DNA of 64,000 nucleotides, from contig JABJGM010000012.1 in the NCBI GenBank assembly GCA_018662325.1, positions 62,001 through 126,000 of the forward strand, in the 5' to 3' direction. A program made the translations under genes and the position numbers. How positions within the stretch are numbered: the first letter of the stretch is position 1; every line of letters starts with the position of its first letter. This DNA comes from a bacterium (GTDB taxonomy: Bacteria; Patescibacteriota; Gracilibacteria; UBA1369; GCA-2718715). The notes beneath the pieces were generated by a model. That model had not been told where the DNA came from. It did not search any database and saw only the letters and a program-made list of their open reading frames with translations. This document shows, piece after piece, positions 13,987-45,308 of this stretch.

Positions 13987-14883
13987 ATGCTTTCAAATAT
14001 CAATTTGCCATTTGAACTTCAAAGATTACTTGAAAATTTAATTGCTGTTCCTAATAACTTAAGAGCGGCAACTTCTAAGTATCTAAGTGAATCTTCTAAT
14101 GTAAATGTTCATGGCGAACAAAGTATGCAATTAGATCTTTTTGCTAATGATTTAGTTAAGGAGTCTTTAGTTGGTCTTGATTTTATACACTCAATTGCTT
14201 CGGAAGAAGAAGATGAGTTAATTTATATGAATACAAATGGTAAATATTTGCTATGTTTCGATCCTTTAGATGGATCTTCTTTAATTAATACAAATCAAGC
14301 TGTTGGGATTGTTTTTGCTCTTTATGATAAAGATAAGGTTTTTAATGTACCTTTGAAAGAATCTTTGATTATGTCTTTTTATTTTCATATTGGAAAAAAT
14401 AATTCTTTGTTAATTAATTATAAAGACAATATTACTCATTTAGAATATTTAGATGATGGGTTTCATGTTAAAGATGTTAATACTATTAACGAAGATGCAA
14501 ATAATATTGCTCCAGGTAATTTGAAATTATTATCTACTAATACTAGATACAAAGACTATATATTGTCCCGTTTAGAAAGTGGATTGAAGTTAAGATACTT
14601 TGCTTGTTTGATTTCCGATATTCATTTCCTTTTATCAAAAGCAGGAGGAATTTTTATTTATTTAAATGATGATAAGCATGTTAATGGTAAGTTACGTTTA
14701 TTGTATGAAGTAGCACCTGTATCTCATATTATTTGTGCTTTAAATGCAAAAAGTATAAATCATACTGGTCAGAATATTTTAGATTTAATTCCTAGTAATA
14801 TACATCAAAATTCATCATTAGTTGCTGGATCTTCATCCGAGGTTGACTTATTTACCGAATTGGTGTTAAATATTAAAGAATAA
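13987..14883 (+). CDS. fbp: Fructose-1,6-bisphosphatase, class I
   Basis: A 298-residue protein with the FBPase/inositol-phosphatase metal motifs: Glu cluster SEEE (about 72-75), FDPLDGSS (91-98) and GKLRLLYEVAPVSHI near the C-terminus. It removes the 1-phosphate of fructose-1,6-bisphosphate, the committed step of gluconeogenesis. It is somewhat shorter than the usual 330 residues. It follows the FtsL-like gene with no gap, so it may share the rsmH transcript. Confidence in the class is high; cofactor regulation cannot be read. Confidence 0.85.
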   Translation: MLSNINLPFELQRLLENLIAVPNNLRAATSKYLSESSNVNVHGEQSMQLDLFANDLVKESLVGLDFIHSIASEEEDELIYMNTNGKYLLCFDPLDGSSLINTNQAVGIVFALYDKDKVFNVPLKESLIMSFYFHIGKNNSLLINYKDNITHLEYLDDGFHVKDVNTINEDANNIAPGNLKLLSTNTRYKDYILSRLESGLKLRYFACLISDIHFLLSKAGGIFIYLNDDKHVNGKLRLLYEVAPVSHIICALNAKSINHTGQNILDLIPSNIHQNSSLVAGSSSEVDLFTELVLNIKE

Positions 14884-29754: not shown

Positions 29755-31605
29755 ATGTATTTTTTTAACTCGATAGTTGAGTTTTTTACTTCCGAAAATA
29801 ACAAACCCGATTCTCCAGATATTTATATAGAAGGTTATGAGCTTGATTTATCTGATGGTGATTTTAAAGCAGAGGTTTTATTTTTAATTAAAATTCAGGA
29901 TTTAGAATTCTCTAAGGCTTCTGAATTTTCAGATTTGTTAGTTGATAATTTTAGAATTGAAATTTTAAAACTTTTACAAAAAGATTCTTATTTAGCATTT
30001 GAAGCTGGATTAAGAAAGGTAAACAATTTTTTTGAAGAATATTTCTCTGATATTAATTCTGATGATAATCAAGGTCCCAAAATTGATCTAGGATTAATTC
30101 TTTTAGTTCAAAATAAAATTCATTTCACTAAACGTGGCAATATAGATATGTATCTTGTGAGAAGTGGACAAATCAATCAAATTTCAGATGCTTTAATTGA
30201 TTCTTCTGAAGATGAATTTTTTTCGAATGTTGCCTCTGGAGAATTTCAGATTGGAGATCACTTTGTAATGTCTTCCGATAGAATTCTTCGATATATTTCG
30301 TTTAATGAATTTTTGAAATGTAGTCGAAATATAGAATCTTTTAAAGATGGTATTTTAGAATCTTTAAATTCAAACTTAGATCAGATGGTTGGTATAATGT
30401 CATCTTATATATCTGAACTTGATGATTTGTCTAATAAACCTTCTGCTATAACATCAAATGATTCTAAATTCACATTTGGTAATTTAAATTTGAGCGCTCA
30501 TAGTTCACGTATTTTCTTGATTTTTATTACTTTATTGTTAATTACTCTTTTAATTTCTGGTTTAGTTTTAACGTTGAATAAGAATTTACAGACTCAAGAA
30601 AGCTTAGATGTAGCTACTGAAATTCAAAATATTAAAAATACAATTATAAATGCAAAGAGTGAAGTTTCTTTGGATCGTGCTTTTTATACTTTGACTTTAG
30701 CTAGTGATAAGATTAATAAACTAGAGAACTTAAACCATAAAAGCAAAGTTCTCAATGATTTAAAAGTAGAAATTCAAGAGGTAATGCTTACCTTAGACAA
30801 TGTATCTTTGATAGAAGAGCCACTAGAGATTTTTAATTTAGATGAGTTTAATCCCAAAGAAAATATCGAAAGTATATTTTTAACAGAGAATGATTTAATA
30901 GTTGCTTCAAATAAATCTTTGTACCAAAATTTAGCTTCGAATAAAAGTGAAAAAGTTTTAAGTTTTGATGATATCTATGCTCCTAGAATTTTTACCTTTA
31001 GTAGTAATTATGAATCAATTATATATTTAGATAAAAAAAATAAACTTAAAGAATTAAGTAGATCCGGAATTAAAAATCTAAATGTTAGTAATGATTTCAG
31101 TGATTCTATAGTTGATGTGTTCGCATATGGAAAGAGATTGTACTTTTTAGATAATGAAGATAAAAATATTTTTAAATTACAAAGAGTTAATAATGGTTAT
31201 TACTCTAAAACTAATTATTTTTCAAAACCTCAAGATTTTTTAGAAAGTGCAAATCAAATTGCAATTGATGGATCTGTATATGCTTTTACTGATAAATTTC
31301 AATTTAGTAAATATTTTAAAAATCAGTTAGATTCAACCTATGTATTAAAAAATCAACCATATGTTAAAATCGATAAATTAACAGATGTTTTCGCTGATTT
31401 TGATCATTCTTTTATTTATGCACTGGATTCAAAATCTAATAAGATATTTAGATACTATAAAGATGTTGAATCAAATATTTTAGATTATGATAAGGTTTAT
31501 AGCTTTCCCAATATTGATAACGTAGAAAATTTCATTGTTGATTATAACAATGAAATTATATATATTTCTAATCAAAACAAAGTCTTTAAGTTTTCTATAA
31601 ACTAA
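29755..31605 (+). CDS. Membrane protein: degenerate PP2C-like domain, one TM helix, propeller-like ectodomain
   Basis: A 616-residue protein. Residues about 112-220 resemble the core of PPM/SpoIIE phosphatases (LVQNKIHFTKRGNIDMYLVRSG, then IGDHFVMSSDRI), but the metal-binding Asp-Gly residues are not in place. One membrane helix (253-274) and a coiled segment follow. The C-terminal 260 residues contain repeated strands such as DDIYAPRIF, YGKRLYFLDNEDKNIF and FIYALDSKSNKIFRY, typical of a beta-propeller. It could relay an outer signal to a cytoplasmic partner. Divergent from rpmH; ends at a strong hairpin. Confidence 0.55.
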   Translation: MYFFNSIVEFFTSENNKPDSPDIYIEGYELDLSDGDFKAEVLFLIKIQDLEFSKASEFSDLLVDNFRIEILKLLQKDSYLAFEAGLRKVNNFFEEYFSDINSDDNQGPKIDLGLILLVQNKIHFTKRGNIDMYLVRSGQINQISDALIDSSEDEFFSNVASGEFQIGDHFVMSSDRILRYISFNEFLKCSRNIESFKDGILESLNSNLDQMVGIMSSYISELDDLSNKPSAITSNDSKFTFGNLNLSAHSSRIFLIFITLLLITLLISGLVLTLNKNLQTQESLDVATEIQNIKNTIINAKSEVSLDRAFYTLTLASDKINKLENLNHKSKVLNDLKVEIQEVMLTLDNVSLIEEPLEIFNLDEFNPKENIESIFLTENDLIVASNKSLYQNLASNKSEKVLSFDDIYAPRIFTFSSNYESIIYLDKKNKLKELSRSGIKNLNVSNDFSDSIVDVFAYGKRLYFLDNEDKNIFKLQRVNNGYYSKTNYFSKPQDFLESANQIAIDGSVYAFTDKFQFSKYFKNQLDSTYVLKNQPYVKIDKLTDVFADFDHSFIYALDSKSNKIFRYYKDVESNILDYDKVYSFPNIDNVENFIVDYNNEIIYISNQNKVFKFSIN

Positions 31606-31646: not shown

Positions 31647-33134
31647 TTATGCTGAAATTACTATACTCTCTTTAATATATTGTTCTATCTTTTGGTTTAA
31701 AAAACCTGGCTGATTAGTGTGAATAATATAAATTGTTTGATCTTTTTTTAGTTTTTCTTTTAAATTTACTAGGACTTCTATTCCAGAGTTAGCGCTTTTT
31801 GGAGACCCTGCAATTTTAGCAATTTTGGATATTAATTTAATATTAAACTCTTTTATTTTTCCGTCTTTCCAAGCTTTTATTTCATATTGGTATTTTGCTT
31901 TTTGAGGTAACTTCTTTTCTCCTTGTGCTTTAATGATTTCTTGAAATTTCAAATAAGCTTTCTTGTTTTCAATTTGTTTTTTTGCAATACTGTATCCTTC
32001 ATTTAGTTTTGCCTTACCAATCATTTCTAAAATTTCTCCTGCTAATTTCAATGATTTTTCGAGTAAATCTTTGGGTGCATCTTTTTCATTTTTAAGCACC
32101 TTTAGAACATCTATTGCTTCTAGTCTTGGTCCAACACCTCTTCCAATTGTTTGGTTTCCCTTTGTAATAATTACTTTTATTTTTAGGTTTAACTCTTTGG
32201 CTATTTTTTCAAATTTTTCTTTTAATTCTTCCGCCTTATTAAGATTCGGAACTTTTGCAAATTTTCCATAGGGGATATCAATAAGAATATGAGTTGCACC
32301 AGCAGCATATTTTTTAGCCATAACTGAGGCTAAAACTAATCCTTGTGGATCTATTCCAAGTTTTCTTCTTACTCTGATTAGTTCGTCATCTGAAGCTGCT
32401 AAGTTACATCCTCCTCCCCAGGCGATAAATCCATTTTGTTCTTTTACAAGCTTTTCAAGTTTTTCTTGATTTATATCTACTTCTGCAAGCACCTCCATTG
32501 TGTCTGCTGTTCCTGATGGAGAAGAGATTGATCTTGAGGAGGTTTTTGGAATTTTAATTCCTAAGCTCGCAATTATGGGTATTACAACCATTGTTGTTCT
32601 GTTTCCGGGAACTCCTCCAATACAGTGTTTATCGGCTACAATTTGGTTTTCTCTAAATTTCAATTTAAATCCATTATCTGCAATTGCTTTTGTTAATCCT
32701 GCAGCTTCTTTAAATGTAAGTTTGTTGGTGTAGCACCCTGCTACAAAAAATGCTAACTCTGCATCGTTAAGATTTCCATCTACAATATCTTTACAAATTG
32801 CTTGGAACTGATTCTCTTTGAGTTTTTTTCCATCAAGTTTTTCTTTTATGAAGTCAATCGATTTAATATTTCCTTCTTTTTGTATTTTAAATTTAAGATT
32901 TAAGCCTTTTTTTACTTTTTCATATGTTCTTAAGGGAATCCCTATAGAATTCTTTTTAAGATTTCCTTCGTTGATTTCCGCGAAGCATAGGGTTTGCTGG
33001 TCTGGATGTTTTGGATTTTGTAACATAACTCTATCCTGAGCTTTAAGTCCTAATTCTTTCGCTATATTTTTACCAATTACAAGGTAATCGTATGATCCTG
33101 AGTTTATAGGTAATATATATTTATTAACTAACAT
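31647..33134 (-). CDS. deoA: AMP phosphorylase (DeoA/thymidine phosphorylase superfamily)
   Basis: A 495-residue protein. An N-terminal domain of about 90 residues, absent from thymidine phosphorylases, is followed by the glycosyltransferase-3 fold with KHCIGGVPGNRTT (169-181), SSRSISSPSGTADTM (199-213) and GGGCNLAASDD. GGVPGNR is the AMP phosphorylase form of the phosphate-binding motif. The enzyme converts NMP plus phosphate to base and ribose-1,5-bisphosphate. In archaea and many CPR bacteria it feeds R15P isomerase and form III RuBisCO; neither is in this window. It overlaps ackA by 11 bp as the third gene of pta-ackA-deoA. Confidence 0.92.
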   Translation of the reverse strand: MLVNKYILPINSGSYDYLVIGKNIAKELGLKAQDRVMLQNPKHPDQQTLCFAEINEGNLKKNSIGIPLRTYEKVKKGLNLKFKIQKEGNIKSIDFIKEKLDGKKLKENQFQAICKDIVDGNLNDAELAFFVAGCYTNKLTFKEAAGLTKAIADNGFKLKFRENQIVADKHCIGGVPGNRTTMVVIPIIASLGIKIPKTSSRSISSPSGTADTMEVLAEVDINQEKLEKLVKEQNGFIAWGGGCNLAASDDELIRVRRKLGIDPQGLVLASVMAKKYAAGATHILIDIPYGKFAKVPNLNKAEELKEKFEKIAKELNLKIKVIITKGNQTIGRGVGPRLEAIDVLKVLKNEKDAPKDLLEKSLKLAGEILEMIGKAKLNEGYSIAKKQIENKKAYLKFQEIIKAQGEKKLPQKAKYQYEIKAWKDGKIKEFNIKLISKIAKIAGSPKSANSGIEVLVNLKEKLKKDQTIYIIHTNQPGFLNQKIEQYIKESIVISA

Positions 33135-34143
33135 TTATATTTATTATATTTTTTAGAATTTGTAAGTTTTCATTACTTGTTAAAATTTCATAATTATTAT
33201 AGCATTCTTTGTTTAAATTTTTTAACAAATCTTTAACAATTTGCGCGTTATTTTCGCATATTCCTCCACTAAAAATTATTTTTTCTGTGATTGGAAATTG
33301 TCCAATAAAACTAGCTATTTTCTTTGATGTTTCATAAATAAAGCAATTATACGCTAAAAGATAGTTTTCTTTAATATTCTTTTCTTTAAATATATCTTTC
33401 ATGGCTGATGTTTCTTGTGTTAAACCTAAAAGTCCGGATTGAAAATTTAATTTTTCTGATATTTTTTTTTCTTTGTTTTTGTATAATTCACAAACTATAT
33501 TTGCATCTAAATCACCACATCTTGTAGACATAATCAATCCTGAGACAGGGGAGTAAGACATAGTGATATCTTTAGCTTTTTGATTTTCTATTAAGCTGAT
33601 AGAACATCCATGTCCTAAATGACATACAACAATTTTGTTTAAGTTTTTAAATTTTTCTGTGAAATACTGGTGATCAAGTCCATGAAACCCATATTTTTGA
33701 AATTCGTATTTATCTCTCCATTCTTTTGGAATTGCAAGTGTTTTAATTTCTTCTGGAATATTTTTAAAAAACCCAGTATCAAAACAAGCATAATGAAGAC
33801 AATTTTTAAATATTTTTTTTGCTGATTCTATTCCAATTAGATTTACTGGGTTATGAATTTTTGCTTTTGGAATATTCCTTTGAATTTCCTTGATTATTTC
33901 AGAGTCAATTTCATGGCATGTTTTCAAGTTTGGTCCTCCATGTACTACTCTGTGCCCTGTAATTATAAAGTCCTCTAATTTATACTCTTTAAGTATCTCA
34001 AATATAGCTTTGTCTAAATCAGATTGTATATTGATTGATTCAAGATTTTTATAATAAATACTTTTTTGAGAATCTACTTCAAATATTTCAATTTTAATTG
34101 AGGATGATCCTATATTAAAAATAATTGCCAGTTTTTTATTCAT
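33124..34143 (-). CDS. ackA: Acetate kinase (short, divergent)
   Basis: A 339-residue ASKHA-fold kinase with FNIGSSSIK, GHRVVHGG, FDTGFF, KYGFHGLDH, HLGHGCSI, MSTRCGDLDA and FSGGICEN. All correspond to acetate kinase motifs, including the conserved Arg residues of HRVVHGG and TR-GDLD. At 339 residues it is about 60 shorter than usual, and a few near-invariant positions vary (HLGHG for HLGNG). It makes ATP and acetate from acetyl phosphate. It overlaps pta by 1 bp. Confidence 0.88.
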   Translation of the reverse strand: MNKKLAIIFNIGSSSIKIEIFEVDSQKSIYYKNLESINIQSDLDKAIFEILKEYKLEDFIITGHRVVHGGPNLKTCHEIDSEIIKEIQRNIPKAKIHNPVNLIGIESAKKIFKNCLHYACFDTGFFKNIPEEIKTLAIPKEWRDKYEFQKYGFHGLDHQYFTEKFKNLNKIVVCHLGHGCSISLIENQKAKDITMSYSPVSGLIMSTRCGDLDANIVCELYKNKEKKISEKLNFQSGLLGLTQETSAMKDIFKEKNIKENYLLAYNCFIYETSKKIASFIGQFPITEKIIFSGGICENNAQIVKDLLKNLNKECYNNYEILTSNENLQILKNIININVS

Positions 34144-35147
34144 TACCCTAATTTATTAATGCTTTCAAATGCAGTAAGTGCACTGATTTCAACTATGTCT
34201 TGAACTGAACAACCTCTAGATAAATCGTTTAATGGTTTGTTTAACCCTTGTAAAATTGGTCCTACAGCTTTGGATTTCGCAAGTCTTTCAACCATTTTAT
34301 ATGTTATATTTCCTGAATTTAGATCTGGAAATATTAGTATGTTAGCGGAGTCTTTTAATTTAGAATTTGGATATTTACGATTTCTAATTTCTGGAATTAA
34401 GGCTGAATCGACCTGCATTTCCCCATCTATAATTAATTGAGGAGCCTTTTCTTGTGCCAATTTTACTGCTTTTTGAATTTTTTCAATTGATTGATCACTT
34501 GCTGAGTTATTTGTAGAGAATGATAAAAATGCAATTTGTGGTTCTAGTCCAGCTAACTTAGCAGAATTAGCAGTGTCTAAGGCAATATTTGCTAGAGTTT
34601 TGGAATCTGGATTTATATTCACTGCGCAATCAGCAAAATAATATACTTCTTGGTTTAGCATCATTATAAAATAACTAGATATCTTATGATCTTTCTCTTT
34701 GGCTCCTATTATTTGAATTGCTGGAATAAAAACTTCTTTAGTCGTAAATGTTGCTCCTGTTACAACTCCATCAACTTTGTTGTCTTTTAAAAGACTACAT
34801 GCAAAATAGTTAACATTGTGCATTAATTCATAAGCTTCTTTTTGTTTCATTCCTTTCATTTTTCTTTGTAGGTATAAATCATTTGCATATTTAATAATAT
34901 CTTGATTCATTGCATCCATATCGAAAATTTGAATTTTTTCTAGTTTATTGAAATTTGCTTTTTTATATTTGTCTAATAATGATTTTGTCTTGCCTATTAC
35001 ACACACATTGCAAATACCAAGGTTCGCTAACTTAATCGATGCATCAAAAACTCTCTGGTCTATGTCTGCTTCAGGAAGAAGGATATTTTGAGGTTTTCTT
35101 TTTGCTATTTGATTTATCTTTTCTAAGAGATGAAGTTTACTTTTCAT
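34143..35147 (-). CDS. pta: Phosphate acetyltransferase
   Basis: A 334-residue PTA_PTB-type enzyme: ILLPEADIDQRVFDAS at the start, KVDGVVTGATFTTKEV, FADCAVNINPDSKTLANIA, FLSFSTNNSA, and ANILIFPDLNSGNITYK near the end. It interconverts acetyl-CoA and acetyl phosphate. It heads a pta-ackA-deoA operon preceded by a hairpin at 35165-35192. Confidence 0.95.
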   Translation of the reverse strand: MKSKLHLLEKINQIAKRKPQNILLPEADIDQRVFDASIKLANLGICNVCVIGKTKSLLDKYKKANFNKLEKIQIFDMDAMNQDIIKYANDLYLQRKMKGMKQKEAYELMHNVNYFACSLLKDNKVDGVVTGATFTTKEVFIPAIQIIGAKEKDHKISSYFIMMLNQEVYYFADCAVNINPDSKTLANIALDTANSAKLAGLEPQIAFLSFSTNNSASDQSIEKIQKAVKLAQEKAPQLIIDGEMQVDSALIPEIRNRKYPNSKLKDSANILIFPDLNSGNITYKMVERLAKSKAVGPILQGLNKPLNDLSRGCSVQDIVEISALTAFESINKLG

Positions 35148-35217: not shown

Positions 35218-35970
35218 CTAAATGTTTTCCCAAATCATATCAAAGATAGAATTATGAGTTTCAGTCATAAACTTATTACTTATCTCAACACCTAAAAATC
35301 TACCTTGGTAAGAAACTAGCAAGATTCTGTTTGGAGTTATAATCATATCACTTTTTAGAGATAGTGATTCTGGAGCAATTTTCAACAAATGATTAGGATT
35401 GTTTTTTGTTGGATTATAATCTGTTCCTTTATTCAATGACGATCTAATTTCTTGAATATGTTTTTCTCTCTCTGCAGATTGTTTAGTGAATTCTCTCAAA
35501 GATTCAGGGAAAAACGTTTTTTTGATACTTGAATGGAAAATAATTTTTAAGGATTCATCTTTAAGTAATTTTTCAATTATTCTTTGTAGTCCTTCTTCTC
35601 CTTCATACATTTTTACTTGAGTAGGGTTTTTTTCAACTTCTAAATTTTTTAATTCAGGAAGAATTTTTTTGAACTGTGAAATTTTACTTTGAATATCTTC
35701 TTCTTTTTGTTTTAGAACTTCAATTATCTTATCTGGACTGACTGATTGATATTTTAATGTTGCTGTATCTGGTACTTTTGAAATTAATCCCATGTCTTCT
35801 ATTTTTTCTACGTAATTATATACGTTTGTTCTTGAGAGATTTATAGCTTCGGAAATTCCCGTAATTCCTAATTTGTCATTTTCAAGTAATGCTAAATAAA
35901 TTTTTATTTCAACTTCGTTTAAGTCTAAAGTTTTAAATATTTCAATTACTTTTTGTGATATGTTAATCAT
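35218..35970 (-). CDS. TrmB-family transcriptional regulator
   Basis: A 250-residue protein: an N-terminal winged helix (LNEVEIKIYLALLENDKLGITGISEAINLSRTNVYNYVEKIEDMGLI, in sequence order), a coiled-coil segment, and a C-terminal PLD-like sensor domain (KIIFHSSI, IITPNRILLVSYQGRFLGVEI). TrmB regulators often respond to sugars and control central carbon genes. It lies directly upstream of pta-ackA-deoA, which makes that operon a possible target. It overlaps the upstream lipoprotein gene by 1 bp. Confidence 0.88.
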   Translation of the reverse strand: MINISQKVIEIFKTLDLNEVEIKIYLALLENDKLGITGISEAINLSRTNVYNYVEKIEDMGLISKVPDTATLKYQSVSPDKIIEVLKQKEEDIQSKISQFKKILPELKNLEVEKNPTQVKMYEGEEGLQRIIEKLLKDESLKIIFHSSIKKTFFPESLREFTKQSAEREKHIQEIRSSLNKGTDYNPTKNNPNHLLKIAPESLSLKSDMIITPNRILLVSYQGRFLGVEISNKFMTETHNSIFDMIWENI

Positions 35971-36645: not shown

Positions 36646-38238
36646 TTAGCTACTAATTTTGTTTAAGCATAATTCTAATCTTTTAATGGTTTGTTCAAAG
36701 CCTAAAGCATATGAAAGTTCAAAAACTCCTGGTGATTCTGATTTATTGGAAAGAGCAACTCTGATTGGCCATAAAACTTGTCCGTTTTTTAATTCCATCT
36801 CAGCAATAATCTCTTTAAATTTAGCAAGTAAAGTTAAATTAGTATTAAAATCTTCAGCTTTTAATTCTTGAATACATTTTTCAATTACTTTTATAGAAAG
36901 TTCTAAATCTACTTTCATTTTTTCATGAGGAAACAATTCTTTGTTATAACTTTCTATATCTTCAGTAAAAATGGTAATTTGTTCTTCTAGTTTACTTGGG
37001 TCTCGTAAAATTAACTCTTCTAGTGATGTTAAAGCTTTATAAAGAAACTCCTTTGATTTAAAATCATTTTCAAGTTTTGTGAAAACTTCTACAGGAAGGT
37101 AATTTTCAAGTAGATTTCCCTTTTTTATATGGAACTCTTTTAATTCTTCAGGACTTTGGAAATTAAATTTCTTTTGGCCTTTTTTTGGTTCTTGAATTTC
37201 AACTTTTGGATTTATCTCCATTGCAATATCTGTTGCATCTTCTAGGTATTTCAATCTTTTATGTTGCCAATTAAACCAATCTAATTTTTGGATATCAAAG
37301 GCTGCTCCTGATTTTTGGACTCTATTAATATCAAAAATTTCTTCAAGTTCACTTTGAGTGTAAAGTTCTTGTTTTGTCCCTGGATTCCATCCAAGTAGCG
37401 ATAAGAAATTAATTATTGCTTCTTTGGTGTAGCCTTTTTTTATGTAGTCTTCAACTGATACGTTTCCGTCTCTTTTTGACATTTTTTTTGTCCCATCAGG
37501 TCTTAAAACAGGCGGAACATGCACAAATTCTGGAACTTTATAACCAAAGGCTTCAAATAGTAAGATATGTTTTGGAGTAGAAGGAAGCCATTCGTCTGAA
37601 CGAATTACATGACTAATTTGCATGTGGTTATCATCAACTGCTACAGCAAAGTGATAAGTTGGAAATCCATCTGACTTTATTAAAACTTGATCATCTAGAG
37701 TATTTGAGTCAAAGCGCATTTTACCTTTAACTATATCTTTAAAATCAACAAATCTATCTTTAGGAATTTTTTGTCTAATAACATAAGGTGTATTTGCATC
37801 TAATTTTGCTTGGATTTCTTCTTTTGAGAGATTTCTACAATGACCATCGTATTTTGGAGCTTGTTTATTCGCCATTTGATTCTCTCGAACTCTATCAAGC
37901 CTTTCTTTTGAACAAAAGCAATGATAGCATCCGTCTTTTTTAAATAAGTCTTTTAGTTTTTCTTGGTAAATGGATAGTCTTTGTGACTGAATATAAGGTC
38001 CAAAGTTTCCGCCTTGGGTTGGTCCTTCATCAATTTTAAGTCCAAACCAATCTAAAATTTGAATTAGGTTTTCTGTTGCTCCTTCTACTTCACGGCTTTG
38101 ATCGGTGTCTTCAACTCTTAAAAGAAATTTTCCTTGGTTTTTCTTAGCAAATAAATATGCAAAAAGTACAGTTCGTAGGGAACCAATATGTAAAAATCCA
38201 GTAGGTGAGGGTGCAAATCTTGTTCTGATTTCTGTCAT
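36646..38238 (-). CDS. gltX: Glutamyl-tRNA synthetase
   Basis: A 530-residue class I synthetase. HIGH region RFAPSPTGFLHIGSLRT at the N-terminus, a Cys-rich insertion (CYHCFC...CRN) typical of zinc-containing GluRS, and the KMSKR loop in GTKKMSKRDG. It charges tRNA-Glu (25901-25975). Whether it also mischarges tRNA-Gln cannot be told; no gatCAB is in the window. Confidence 0.98.
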   Translation of the reverse strand: MTEIRTRFAPSPTGFLHIGSLRTVLFAYLFAKKNQGKFLLRVEDTDQSREVEGATENLIQILDWFGLKIDEGPTQGGNFGPYIQSQRLSIYQEKLKDLFKKDGCYHCFCSKERLDRVRENQMANKQAPKYDGHCRNLSKEEIQAKLDANTPYVIRQKIPKDRFVDFKDIVKGKMRFDSNTLDDQVLIKSDGFPTYHFAVAVDDNHMQISHVIRSDEWLPSTPKHILLFEAFGYKVPEFVHVPPVLRPDGTKKMSKRDGNVSVEDYIKKGYTKEAIINFLSLLGWNPGTKQELYTQSELEEIFDINRVQKSGAAFDIQKLDWFNWQHKRLKYLEDATDIAMEINPKVEIQEPKKGQKKFNFQSPEELKEFHIKKGNLLENYLPVEVFTKLENDFKSKEFLYKALTSLEELILRDPSKLEEQITIFTEDIESYNKELFPHEKMKVDLELSIKVIEKCIQELKAEDFNTNLTLLAKFKEIIAEMELKNGQVLWPIRVALSNKSESPGVFELSYALGFEQTIKRLELCLNKISS

Positions 38239-41132: not shown

Positions 41133-41669
41133 CTAAGCACTATCATTATTTTCTCCTGTAGAGGACGTTTCTTGAGTTGCTGGAGTTTGCTGAGTTTGAG
41201 CTTCTCCTTCGAGTTCTTGAGGGATTAATGTAAGGTCTAATATGAAAAGTGTAATTGAGTAAGATAGCATGATAATTAGAAGTCCTAGGGCTAGGTTTCC
41301 AAGAGCTTTTTTAGAGTTAGTAATTTCTTCTTCGTTACCAAATGCAATAACCATTTTAAAGGCGTAAATTATGATAAGTAGTACTATTGATCCACCTAGG
41401 AACTGTAGAGCTGTAACAATTAAGTCACCAACAAATCGTTCTGTTTTTTTCCTGGCTGATTGGCTATCATCTCCAGATCCTGATCTTTTTTCTTGTGTTG
41501 ATATTTTTGGATCGGTAATTTCAGGTAGGTATCTTGGTTTTAACTCGTTTTCTAAGAAATCAACGCTTGCAGGTTTTTTGTTTTCGGCAAATGCATTTGT
41601 AGGCGTGTAGCTTTGTGATGCTATTATTATAGTGATAGCTAGAAAGCTGAATATTATTTTTTTTAACAT
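41133..41669 (-). CDS. T4SS-pilin-like (VirB2/TrbC type) membrane protein 6
   Basis: A 178-residue protein with a signal peptide (about 1-28, ending NAFA), a polar segment of about 50 residues, a first membrane helix (about 83-108), a short charged loop with GNEEEITNSKKALGN, a second helix (about 120-147) and a Gln/Thr-rich tail. The two-helix hairpin with a G-DE-E-x-KKA loop is shared by all six genes of this operon and matches VirB2/TrbC pilins. Last gene of the ftsK-led operon. Confidence 0.75.
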   Translation of the reverse strand: MLKKIIFSFLAITIIIASQSYTPTNAFAENKKPASVDFLENELKPRYLPEITDPKISTQEKRSGSGDDSQSARKKTERFVGDLIVTALQFLGGSIVLLIIIYAFKMVIAFGNEEEITNSKKALGNLALGLLIIMLSYSITLFILDLTLIPQELEGEAQTQQTPATQETSSTGENNDSA

Positions 41670-41671
41670 AT

Positions 41672-42217
41672 TTAAGGTCTTAAATTTTGTAATATAGTAA
41701 CAAGTCCATAGATAATTGCATATGATCCTAGGATTACTCCTACGCCTATTAATGTATTTAGGATAAGATTTTTTACTTCTGTATAAGAGGCTTCATCACC
41801 ATTTGAAATGATTAAAATAACACCTGCGTAAATAAATAAACCTGTGAAAATTAAAATAGAGCTATAGATAAGTATTTTAAGGATTCTTGGTAGGATTTGA
41901 GTTTCAAGATTTCCTTCAGTGAATTGAATTTGTTTTTGTTCACTTTCTGAAATTTTAGTGTTGCTGTCTATGTCTAAATTCTTAGATTTTTGAATGAACT
42001 CTTTTTGTTTTGGTATTAGTGAGTTTCTTAATTCTTGATAACTTTGTTGGTTTTCTCGGTTGAAGCTATCTGCAGATGTTTCTTGAGTACTTGATTCAGG
42101 TGCTGATCTTTGAGGTGATGGAGTTCTACCACTTGGATTAGAAGCAAATGAGATTGCTTGAATGCTTAGTAGGAATACTAGGGATGTAAGTAGTAATAAA
42201 TTTTTTATTTTTTTCAT
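41672..42217 (-). CDS. T4SS-pilin-like membrane protein 5
   Basis: A 181-residue protein: signal peptide, a Gln/Ser/Glu-rich helical segment, then two membrane helices joined by the loop NGDEASYTEVKNLI. Closely spaced (2 bp) with the next pilin-like gene. It has the same architecture as its operon neighbours but a different outer segment, so it is likely a non-identical subunit rather than a redundant copy. Confidence 0.75.
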   Translation of the reverse strand: MKKIKNLLLLTSLVFLLSIQAISFASNPSGRTPSPQRSAPESSTQETSADSFNRENQQSYQELRNSLIPKQKEFIQKSKNLDIDSNTKISESEQKQIQFTEGNLETQILPRILKILIYSSILIFTGLFIYAGVILIISNGDEASYTEVKNLILNTLIGVGVILGSYAIIYGLVTILQNLRP

Positions 42218-42235
42218 TTTTTTATTTTTTAAAAA

Positions 42236-42703
42236 TTAGACAAAGTCTAATGGAATTACATTGATAATTTGAACAATAGCGAAACTTAAAAATGCCAATA
42301 TTAAACCAACGATAGAAAATGTTATAGCTTTTTTAGCTTGTTCTAAATTTTGTTCTTCACCAAGGTCAGATATATATAAGAATCCTCCATAAATTAAACC
42401 AAGTAAGGATGCTATTGTGATAAATACTAGTAATCTGATACTGAATTTTGGTAGGAATTGATTTAGGATTGTTCTTTGTTTTTCTTTAGTTGTTGGGTTT
42501 TCTTGTGTGAATTTTGGTCCAGGAAGTTTGCTCGGTTTATAAATTCCAAAACTTTGGGTATTTTGATTTGCTGTACCTTGGCTGCTTTGATCAGTACTTT
42601 CATCTTGAGTTGTATTTTCACTTGCACTTGCAATAACTGTGCCAAAAATTAGACTTGTGCAAAGGGTAATAATTATTAAAAAGTTTTTAAATAGTGATTT
42701 CAT
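42236..42703 (-). CDS. T4SS-pilin-like membrane protein 4
   Basis: The shortest member, 155 residues: signal peptide, a Gln/Thr-rich stretch, then two helices around the loop DLGEEQNLEQAKKAI. Size and layout are the closest in this set to classical VirB2 pilins. Confidence 0.75.
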   Translation of the reverse strand: MKSLFKNFLIIITLCTSLIFGTVIASASENTTQDESTDQSSQGTANQNTQSFGIYKPSKLPGPKFTQENPTTKEKQRTILNQFLPKFSIRLLVFITIASLLGLIYGGFLYISDLGEEQNLEQAKKAITFSIVGLILAFLSFAIVQIINVIPLDFV

Positions 42704-42718
42704 ATTTTTATTTTTAGA

Positions 42719-43480
42719 TTAAGTGGTTCTTCTAGACTCTGCTTGAGTGCTTGCTGCGGGTTGGAGCTCTTTGTCTACCGTGAAGAAAGTTGGGTTTATT
42801 GCATATAAGATTATACTTGCGCTTAAAAGTACGACTAGTGCTATTAAGCTTTGTATTATTCTATCTTTTGCTGCAGTAACTTGTCCTGAATCATTTTGAG
42901 CACTCGAAATGATTATACCATTTACTATTATATAAATCACTGCGACTATACCTACTATTGAACTTACCCATCTGTATATTAAATTTACATATTTTGCAGC
43001 TAATTCTTGTCCTGATTTATAAATTATAAATTGTACTCGTCTGCAGCTAATTCCTTTTTTTCCATTCTCATCTGCTGCAGCTAAGTTTGGAAATTGTGGT
43101 TTACATTTACATGTTACTCTAGATTTACAATTGTAGTTTGTGGAACTTCCTGTTGTTATTGGTTCACATGTTTGCTTTATAAATACGTTATTTTTTGTGC
43201 TTAGTGGTTGGTCTAAAAATGTAATAAAGTTTTCTAAGTTTGTTGTTTTATTGGTAATCACTTTTTTCATGAAATCGTATTCTCCTTGATTTATATTTGA
43301 ATTACATTCACCGTTCCAATCTTCAATAGAGAGGCTTGGCTCTGATTCTCTTGCCTGCGTATTAGATGTTCGTTCTTCTGCTTCTACGTTTTTTAGTATA
43401 GAAAAATTTAAACTAATGATTACTGTAAGTAATGTTATTGTTTTTAGGATTTTTTTGAAGAAAATTATTTTAGGTTTCAT
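42719..43480 (-). CDS. T4SS-pilin-like membrane protein 3, Cys-rich ectodomain
   Basis: A 253-residue protein. After the signal peptide an ectodomain of about 130 residues contains at least six Cys (NGECNSN, KQTCEP, NYNCKSRVTCKCKPQ, SCRRVQ), probably disulfide-bonded. Two helices with the loop NDSGQVTAAKDRII follow, then a short tail. Disulfide formation implies an oxidising outer face. Confidence 0.72.
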   Translation of the reverse strand: MKPKIIFFKKILKTITLLTVIISLNFSILKNVEAEERTSNTQARESEPSLSIEDWNGECNSNINQGEYDFMKKVITNKTTNLENFITFLDQPLSTKNNVFIKQTCEPITTGSSTNYNCKSRVTCKCKPQFPNLAAADENGKKGISCRRVQFIIYKSGQELAAKYVNLIYRWVSSIVGIVAVIYIIVNGIIISSAQNDSGQVTAAKDRIIQSLIALVVLLSASIILYAINPTFFTVDKELQPAASTQAESRRTT

Positions 43481-43488
43481 GATGATTA

Positions 43489-44415
43489 TTAGAAGATACT
43501 TTGGACTAAGATAACTATTGTGTAAGAAAGCATTATAAAGAAGAATCCTGTTATTGCATATTTAATTGAGTTTTTTCCTCTTTCAGTCATATCTGAATCA
43601 AAGCCCGCAAAAATTAGATTATATCCTCCGTATATTAGTGAGGCCATACATAAAACAAAAACTATTCCTACTAAATAATCAATTATCATATTTATAAATC
43701 CTATGACTGGTCCAGCTTGATTTTCGGTAAGTTCTTTCAGTTGAGTTTTTTGTTGAGTATTGGCTATAAGACCTTTTTCTTCATTAAAAACTTCATAATT
43801 ATTGATGCCGATTTCGTTTGATTGTGAATCTAAAAAATTTTTTGGTTCTGAAGAGTTTCCATGGCATCCATATAGATCATTTCTTATTTGAAGATTTAGT
43901 TGAGATAGATTGTCTCTTTTTTGTTTCTCTAGTATACTAAGGCATGTTTCATGAGGTGTATCTATTAGACAATTATTGTTACCTTTAGACTCAATTGCTT
44001 TATATGTCTCTAACGTTATTTTTCCCCCCGGACTGTTTATTAATTTTGCTTCATTAATGGCTTGAACTGATTTATCGCTAGGTATTTCTACTGGGTAGAA
44101 ACATTCTGATAGTTTATTGTAAGAGTCTTTAAATAGTTGAATTCTTGGGTCTTCGTTTAATTGAACTAGTGTATCTGGCGTGGAATCCATAATTAATAAT
44201 GCTTTTGTTTCAATGAATCCTAGGCATAAAAATAATTCTTTATTTATTTCTAAATCTTTATCTTGAATTCTTACAATTAGATCTTCGTAAGTAGGAAATT
44301 GATAGTTGCATCTTTCAATTGGTGGTTGTGTTGCATGGGAATGATTAAATGTTAATCCTAATGTTAGGAAAATTATTAAAAATGATAATATTGATTTTAA
44401 AAATTTTTTTTGCAA
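43489..44415 (-). CDS. T4SS-pilin-like membrane protein 2
   Basis: A 308-residue protein with a TTG start inside a 15-nt repeat. It has a signal peptide, a Cys-containing ectodomain of about 200 residues, then two helices around AGFDSDMTERGKNSIKYAI. The last 120 residues are nearly identical to those of the next gene upstream, while the N-terminal 150 are clearly diverged. Both also share YGCHGNSSEPKN / FGCYGNSSEPKN, so they are tandem duplicates. Confidence 0.75.
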   Translation of the reverse strand: MQKKFLKSILSFLIIFLTLGLTFNHSHATQPPIERCNYQFPTYEDLIVRIQDKDLEINKELFLCLGFIETKALLIMDSTPDTLVQLNEDPRIQLFKDSYNKLSECFYPVEIPSDKSVQAINEAKLINSPGGKITLETYKAIESKGNNNCLIDTPHETCLSILEKQKRDNLSQLNLQIRNDLYGCHGNSSEPKNFLDSQSNEIGINNYEVFNEEKGLIANTQQKTQLKELTENQAGPVIGFINMIIDYLVGIVFVLCMASLIYGGYNLIFAGFDSDMTERGKNSIKYAITGFFFIMLSYTIVILVQSIF

Positions 44416-44474
44416 GTTTTGTGTATTAATTCATATTATTTTAACATATTTTACTTGTATTTTGCAAGTTTTGT
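44408..44474. repeat. 15-nt direct repeat flanking the gap between pilin genes 1 and 2
   Basis: TTTTGCAAGTTTTGT occurs at 44408-44422 and 44460-44474. The first copy contains the TTG start of pilin gene 2. On the minus strand the second copy supplies TTGCAA, which with TTAAAA 17 bp later could be a weak internal promoter. Confidence 0.7.
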
Positions 44475-44489
44475 AAATTATATATTTTT

Positions 44490-45308
44490 TTAGAATATAC
44501 TTTGAACTAAAAGTACAATTGTATAGGAAAGCATAACAAAAAAGAATCCTGTTATTGCGTATTTGATAGCATTTTTCCCTTTCTCCGTCATATCTGAGTC
44601 GAATCCAGCAAAAATTAGGTTATAACCTCCGTAGATTAATGAACTTAGACAAATTACGAAAATAATTCCAACCAAATAATCAATTATCATATTTATAAAA
44701 CTTATGACTGGTCCAGCTTGATTTTCGGTAAGCTTTTTAAGTTGAGTTTTTTGTTGAGTATTTGCTACAAGACCCTTTTCTTCGTTAAAAACCTCAAAAT
44801 TGTTGATATTTTTGTCTTCTCCTTCGAAATCTATTAAATTTTTAGGCTCTGAGCTATTTCCGTAGCATCCAAATAATGAATCTCTTCTTGCATTATTTGT
44901 TCGTTCCGGAGATGTTTTTATTAGATTTGCTAATTTAGCTAAACATTTTTCTCTGTTTGTATCTAATAAGCAATTATTGTTTTGATCTAGAGTTTTTATT
45001 TTATCAATTGTGATAATACTGTCTGACTCGTTTTTGTATATACAGTTGTATTTTATGTTTACATCTCTGCAAATTTCACTGAATATTGCTTCACTTCTTT
45101 CACTTGCAGGAATATGTTTACTTAGATCTTCAATGTTAAAACATTTACAGCTTTTTATTATTTCTTGATCACTTCCTTGTATTCTTTCTTCATTAATTTT
45201 TCTGCAAAATTCCTCGTCTGGAGTAAATTCATCTAATTCTGATGCAAATGTAATTGATGTAAAAGTTGATATTATAAGGATCTGTAAAAGTATTAAAAGT
45301 TTTTTCAT
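44490..45308 (-). CDS. T4SS-pilin-like membrane protein 1
   Basis: A 272-residue protein: signal peptide, a Cys-containing ectodomain (EEFCRKINEER, KSCKCFNIEDL, EICRDVNIKYNCIY), the shared GNSSEPKN stretch, and a two-helix C-terminus with AGFDSDMTEKGKNAIKYAI. It begins 4 bp after ftsK and is a tandem duplicate of the following gene. Confidence 0.75.
   Translation of the reverse strand: MKKLLILLQILIISTFTSITFASELDEFTPDEEFCRKINEERIQGSDQEIIKSCKCFNIEDLSKHIPASERSEAIFSEICRDVNIKYNCIYKNESDSIITIDKIKTLDQNNNCLLDTNREKCLAKLANLIKTSPERTNNARRDSLFGCYGNSSEPKNLIDFEGEDKNINNFEVFNEEKGLVANTQQKTQLKKLTENQAGPVISFINMIIDYLVGIIFVICLSSLIYGGYNLIFAGFDSDMTEKGKNAIKYAITGFFFVMLSYTIVLLVQSIF

Follow-up and report, generated by a model that had tools for sequence, protein, structure and literature searches.

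A pta-ackA-deoA2 operon in an apparently RuBisCO-free relative of the Peregrinibacteria: a possible truncated nucleoside-monophosphate shunt

The operon, its neighbours and its enzymes

The window analysed here, 64,000 nucleotides in length (G000:C4:62001-126000), belongs to an assembly of 980,408 bases in 14 contigs that is 95.8% complete; the close relatives named by a contig scan are Candidatus Peregrinibacteria and Peribacteria. Its relevant features are the following:

29755..31605, plus strand: convergent gene of cluster c1, 616 aa, no Pfam match; abuts deoA2
31647..33134, minus strand: deoA2, predicted long-form nucleoside-monophosphate (AMP/NMP) phosphorylase, 495 aa
33124..34143, minus strand: ackA, acetate kinase, 339 aa; short and divergent, family motifs kept
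34143..35147, minus strand: pta, phosphate acetyltransferase, 334 aa; the sole PTA_PTB gene in the genome
35163..35194, minus strand: putative terminator-like hairpin between trmB and pta, a consensus match only
35218..35970, minus strand: TrmB-domain regulator gene upstream of pta, named by domain match
36646..38238, minus strand: gltX, a conserved marker upstream of the operon, from gene-order comparison

These coordinates bear out the gene order pta-ackA-deoA of the original prediction, together with its two overlaps, one of 1 bp between pta and ackA (TAATG) and the other of 11 bp between ackA and deoA2. The TrmB-type gene that had been placed next to the operon is also there, 70 bp 5' of pta; we rejected it as the operon's regulator because its position is not conserved; in relatives the site is either empty or occupied by a PHP-domain gene. 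Terminator-like sites are not commoner in the region than in shuffled sequence (3 found, 2.7 expected). Elsewhere in the window, five or six genes for small secreted or membrane proteins follow one another on one strand (41133-45308), two of them near-duplicates (43489-44415 and 44490-45308), and a class I fructose-1,6-bisphosphatase gene occupies 13987-14883; in another genome, G010, deoA is closely preceded by an FBPase gene.

We surveyed 89 genomes of the order by profile searches (PF01008, TIGR02645, PF00016 and PF01515), and found long-form deoA in 38 of them. In 15 genomes, drawn from six families with approximately 45% protein identity, pta-ackA-deoA is contiguous; this count was defined by a pta gene upstream on the same strand and a gap to deoA that fits only ackA, and BLAST verified the intervening ackA in 11 loci. 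The marker order gltX ... pta-ackA-deoA ... c1-c6-c4 is common to several families. Since the same gene order recurs across six families, the operon is a conserved feature and not a chance arrangement, which answers in the affirmative the check on relatives that had been proposed with the prediction.

Both enzymes of a Pta-AckA acetate pathway are predicted from their family motifs to be present: Pta matches PTA_PTB (Pfam) at 357 bits and exceeds the TIGR00651 cut-off, and AckA matches Acetate_kinase at 231 bits, far over the Pfam cut-off. AckA falls below the cut-off for TIGR00016 (228 against 293 bits); its motifs align with those of E. coli AckA. Acetate formation by Pta-AckA is already known in some Peregrinibacteria.

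DeoA2 contains the N-terminal and a/b domains of the glycosyltransferase-3 family. It scores above the cut-offs for PRK04350 (long-form thymidine/AMP phosphorylase, NCBIfam; 527 against 434 bits) and TIGR02645 (472 against 434.6 bits, covering positions 6-480 of 493), and below the curated cut-off for TIGR03327, ‘AMP phosphorylase’ (443 against 535 bits). We regard this last result as weak counter-evidence because isomerase-linked relatives vary in the same way, some missing that cut-off (499 bits) and others passing it (552 bits). DeoA2 is also far under the cut-offs for the short-form thymidine and pyrimidine-nucleoside phosphorylases (TIGR02643, 130 against 570.7 bits; TIGR02644, 215 against 409 bits). 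The nearest solved structures are those of the Thermococcus kodakarensis enzyme, 4ga5 (E 8.7e-89) and 4ga4 (2.5e-87). The alignment to 4ga5 begins at residue 7 of DeoA2, which has the long form with an N-terminal domain of approximately 84 residues.

For the AMP site, we compared positions that we take to be the annotated sites of the T. kodakarensis enzyme. DeoA2 keeps Gly168, Ser194, Arg195, Ile197, Ser199, Thr203, Asp256, Ser264, Lys268 and Lys288 (T. kodakarensis numbering), and its two substitutions inside the SRxIxS loop, A196S and T198S, are both conservative. E. coli DeoA, on the other hand, departs from the T. kodakarensis residues at 194, 196-199 and 288; the DeoA2 loop reads SRSISSPSGT, and the nucleoside-type loop GRGLGHTGGT. 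The retention of nucleotide-type residues, unlike the situation in E. coli thymidine phosphorylase, upholds the predicted AMP phosphorylase, notwithstanding the TIGR03327 score, and supports nucleoside-5'-monophosphate (AMP/NMP) phosphorylase as the best name for DeoA2, its activity being read from the sequence.

R15P isomerase and RuBisCO in the order

Each of the 35 deoA-bearing genomes from families other than the window's own (f1) has a gene of the IF-2B family 3' of deoA on the same strand; in most it follows directly, and in three, one or two small genes intervene. The best NCBIfam match of these deoA-linked proteins is TIGR00511, at 231 bits and below the cut-off of 314. The catalytic Cys and Asp of ribose-1,5-bisphosphate (R15P) isomerase, as named in PMC5789824, are kept in 30 of 30 aligned operon or deoA-linked proteins, 10 of which come from extra operons and candidate phyla outside the order. 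On these sequence grounds, the IF-2B genes after deoA are predicted R15P isomerases. In relatives, a deoxycytidylate-deaminase-like gene of cluster c5 often follows the isomerase (for example L030:7400-7939 and L031:1856-2527); the f1 locus is without this gene as well.

None of the three genomes of family f1 has an isomerase after deoA. In the window's own genome, no PF01008 match was obtained, an HMM built from 20 isomerases of the order found none, and the gene is absent from its conserved position; a search with PF00016 likewise found no RuBisCO. Among the 38 deoA genomes of the order, RuBisCO occurs in 21, all outside f1, and in 0/3 within it. The usual partners that the original prediction had named, R15P isomerase and RuBisCO, were thus both sought in this genome and not found. 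The only IF-2B gene in family f1 is a distant one (G001:C69), which we rejected as a replacement isomerase: Ser and Leu stand at its catalytic Cys and Asp positions.

A further observation concerns the gene that adjoins deoA2 downstream. The R15P isomerase gene separates deoA2 from c1 in most relatives; in 3/3 genomes of f1, deoA2 abuts this same convergent c1 gene, and the downstream order is preserved. In the tree, the f1 sequences branch as the sister group of every other Peregrinibacteria deoA2, a placement that does not itself settle whether the isomerase was lost from the f1 operon or gained late by the others. We favour loss, because the deoA-then-isomerase order is also found outside the order, namely in G091, an Acidobacteriota contig and an Aminicenantes contig. 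Isomerase and RuBisCO accompany deoA in 10 of 13 candidate-phyla genomes from outside the order.

A separate group of 14 genomes within the order (e.g., G015, G026, G017 and G019) has deoA and the isomerase and no RuBisCO; 10 of the 14 are at least 90% complete. In these genomes, RuBP may leave by a route that involves no carboxylation.

Possible fates of R15P

Enzymes of central metabolism were sought by phmmer, as tblastn searches from E. coli proteins lacked the sensitivity to recover even deoA2. The contigs of the window's genome contain PDH E2 and E3, transketolase, rpiA, rpiB, rpe, pgk, enolase (eno) and pyruvate kinase (pyk). Other names come from reading the sequences and not from a family search: the E1 alpha and beta genes of PDH, adjacent to E2, and a transaldolase-like gene next to the one for transketolase. 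Both pyruvate dehydrogenase and the non-oxidative branch of the pentose-phosphate pathway are encoded. Single-sequence searches of the same contigs, which are weak except for prs, did not find deoB, deoC, deoD, prs, apt or hpt. We rejected a classical deoB/deoC route on account of its missing genes, and a deoA-linked PRPP synthetase of the kind seen in Proteobacteria because that enzyme, too, is absent from this genome. An aCPSF1-like beta-CASP nuclease is encoded as well; nucleases of this kind are neighbours of deoA in other phyla.

With neither RuBisCO nor the isomerase in the genome, R15P must exit by another route. We hypothesize, giving this reading about an even chance, that pta-ackA-deoA is a truncated Peregrinibacteria NMP-shunt operon, the full version being pta-ackA-deoA-R15P isomerase; the isomerase would have been lost, there would be no RuBisCO, and R15P would most likely be dephosphorylated. 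DeoA2 would convert scavenged NMP and phosphate to free base and R15P. Deprived of isomerase and RuBisCO, the cell would not convert R15P to RuBP and 3-phosphoglycerate; a HAD-type or other phosphatase would most likely remove the 1-phosphate to yield ribose-5-phosphate, and the latter could then pass via the pentose-phosphate pathway to pyruvate, acetyl-CoA and acetyl phosphate, and so to acetate and ATP. We identified no R15P-specific phosphatase.

Acetate formation downstream of the operon is plausible. For the end of the proposed chain, T. kodakarensis offers a precedent: growing on nucleosides by way of the pentose bisphosphate pathway, it produces acetate (PMC12628685). The original prediction went further, tying nucleotide catabolism directly to energy yield; that step was inferential, as acetyl-CoA needs pyruvate and PDH, and in this genome we found no gene that links R15P to the pyruvate-acetyl-CoA chain.

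A different destination for R15P, which we consider unlikely, is PRPP: a PhnN-like kinase would carry out the conversion, NMP scavenging would replace PRPP synthetase, and the PRPP would be used by, for example, a UPRTase-like protein. The window's genome has no match to PRPP synthetase (PF13793), whereas 27 of the 30 genomes searched are positive, including the f1 members G001 and G003. According to work cited in PMC9700705, E. coli PhnN is active on R15P and can bypass the loss of PRPP synthetase. The best NCBIfam match of a 221-aa kinase (C11:47271-47936) is PhnN (TIGR02322), over its full length, and the kinase has the ITR and LxW motifs of E. coli PhnN at positions that are different in guanylate kinases; a UPRTase-like gene (C11:43550-44263, L112) is approximately 3 kb away. 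However, the kinase scores 46.9 bits, far under the cut-off of 156, its gene is unlinked to the operon, and the UPRTase-like protein is also below its own cut-off. Phage or viral relatives of the kinase were sought, and none was found. If this proposal were true, it would describe PRPP made from scavenged nucleotides in a wild organism, bypassing ribose-5-phosphate pyrophosphokinase.

Could DeoA2 instead have shifted to nucleosides, as a thymidine or uridine phosphorylase, after the isomerase was lost? At 1.16, its end branch exceeds all others in the tree (median 0.28; its composition is biased), and this, taken with the low TIGR03327 score, indicates that its activity may have drifted. The A196S and T198S substitutions point the same way, and with deoA2 the only one found among the deoA, deoB, deoC and deoD homologues, the role of nucleoside phosphorylase is unfilled. 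Nevertheless, the residues at positions 194-199 and 288 are still nucleotide-type, where those of E. coli DeoA differ, and in a cell without DeoB the ribose-1-phosphate product would also have no known exit. We judge such a shift to be rather improbable.

There is little likelihood, in our estimation, that DeoA2 works in base exchange, by reversible NMP phosphorolysis in which R15P, as carrier, would let a cell with little nucleotide synthesis of its own transfer ribose phosphate from one base to another. PMC9700705 describes R15P as a node that connects nucleosides with NMPs, and purM, guaA, purA and pyrE, like apt and hpt, were not found in the genome by single-sequence search; divergent genes can escape such searches.

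That deoA2 is a functionless relic in decay we think very improbable: its open frame and all of its catalytic residues are kept in three deeply diverged genera. The proteins of the operon are, it is true, more diverged than gltX: for deoA2 the figure is 43% for the window's genome against 57% for other families, the corresponding values for gltX being 51% and 58%, and ackA has diverged further than gltX in the same sense. This extra divergence would fit a constraint on the operon as a whole that has weakened or changed. Finally, at 95.8% completeness each absence could be a gap, yet we reject as the least probable reading an intact RuBisCO pathway for which the assembly simply failed to capture the isomerase and RuBisCO genes, given that the isomerase is gone from its conserved position within an unbroken contig, and in 3/3 genomes of the family.

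Significance and comparison with known systems

In candidate phyla, the presence of NMP phosphorylase is usually taken to signal nucleotide use linked to RuBisCO. A conserved operon that keeps the enzyme beside genes for acetate formation, without isomerase and RuBisCO, indicates that NMP phosphorylase alone is no proof of the RuBisCO pathway. It also raises the question of what becomes of R15P in a small-genome bacterium that is apparently unable to make PRPP in the normal manner. Several elements of our proposal are already known: the NMP shunt in candidate phyla, acetate formation by Pta-AckA in some Peregrinibacteria, and the RuBisCO-free pentose bisphosphate metabolism of haloarchaea. The papers that we searched contain no description of a pta-ackA-deoA operon, nor of an NMP phosphorylase lacking both isomerase and RuBisCO, although other papers may describe either.

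The closest counterpart of DeoA2 is the archaeal AMP/NMP phosphorylase (T. kodakarensis TK0352; PDB: 4ga5/4ga6), which likewise has the long form with an N-terminal domain and agrees with DeoA2 at every residue listed above, from 168 to 288. The differences are A196S, T198S, the score below the TIGR03327 cut-off, and a genome without R15P isomerase or RuBisCO. E. coli deoCABD encodes a phosphorylase with a homologous fold; this is a short-form enzyme with other phosphate-loop residues, and homologues of its deoB, deoC and deoD partners were not found in the window's genome.

In Proteobacteria and Bacteroidota, a deoA-prs cluster resembles the window in having long-form deoA with no adjacent isomerase, but a PRK07199-type PRPP synthetase follows deoA in 43 of 77 loci (L129-L208; for example Aequorivita antarctica, L136:5424-9233; see also L221 from G256), and the window's genome has no prs. 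The deoA-prs loci often have an aCPSF1-like beta-CASP nuclease upstream, an association that suggests a possible route from RNA to NMP, R15P and then PRPP, or a related salvage. A nuclease of the beta-CASP type also precedes R15P isomerase and deoA, in that order, in another candidate-phyla family (L214, L215, L216, L219, L222 and L223). We also noted short deoA proteins of 422-424 aa (L218:5395-6669 and L220:5368-6636, in G205 and G238) that have a nucleotide-type loop and no N-terminal domain; both genomes are 99-100% complete and are without isomerase and RuBisCO.

The NMP shunt of candidate phyla, with form II/III or form III RuBisCO, has been reported for Peregrinibacteria, Dojkabacteria and others. 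It uses the same deoA gene, and close relatives in the order keep the isomerase and, in 21 of 38 cases, RuBisCO; the window's genome differs in the absence of both and in the joining of pta-ackA to deoA. Haloarchaea have a non-carboxylating pentose bisphosphate pathway that is RuBisCO-free (PMC9700705), as we propose here for the window's organism; in that pathway the isomerase is present and NMP phosphorylase is not, whereas the window's genome has the reverse arrangement.
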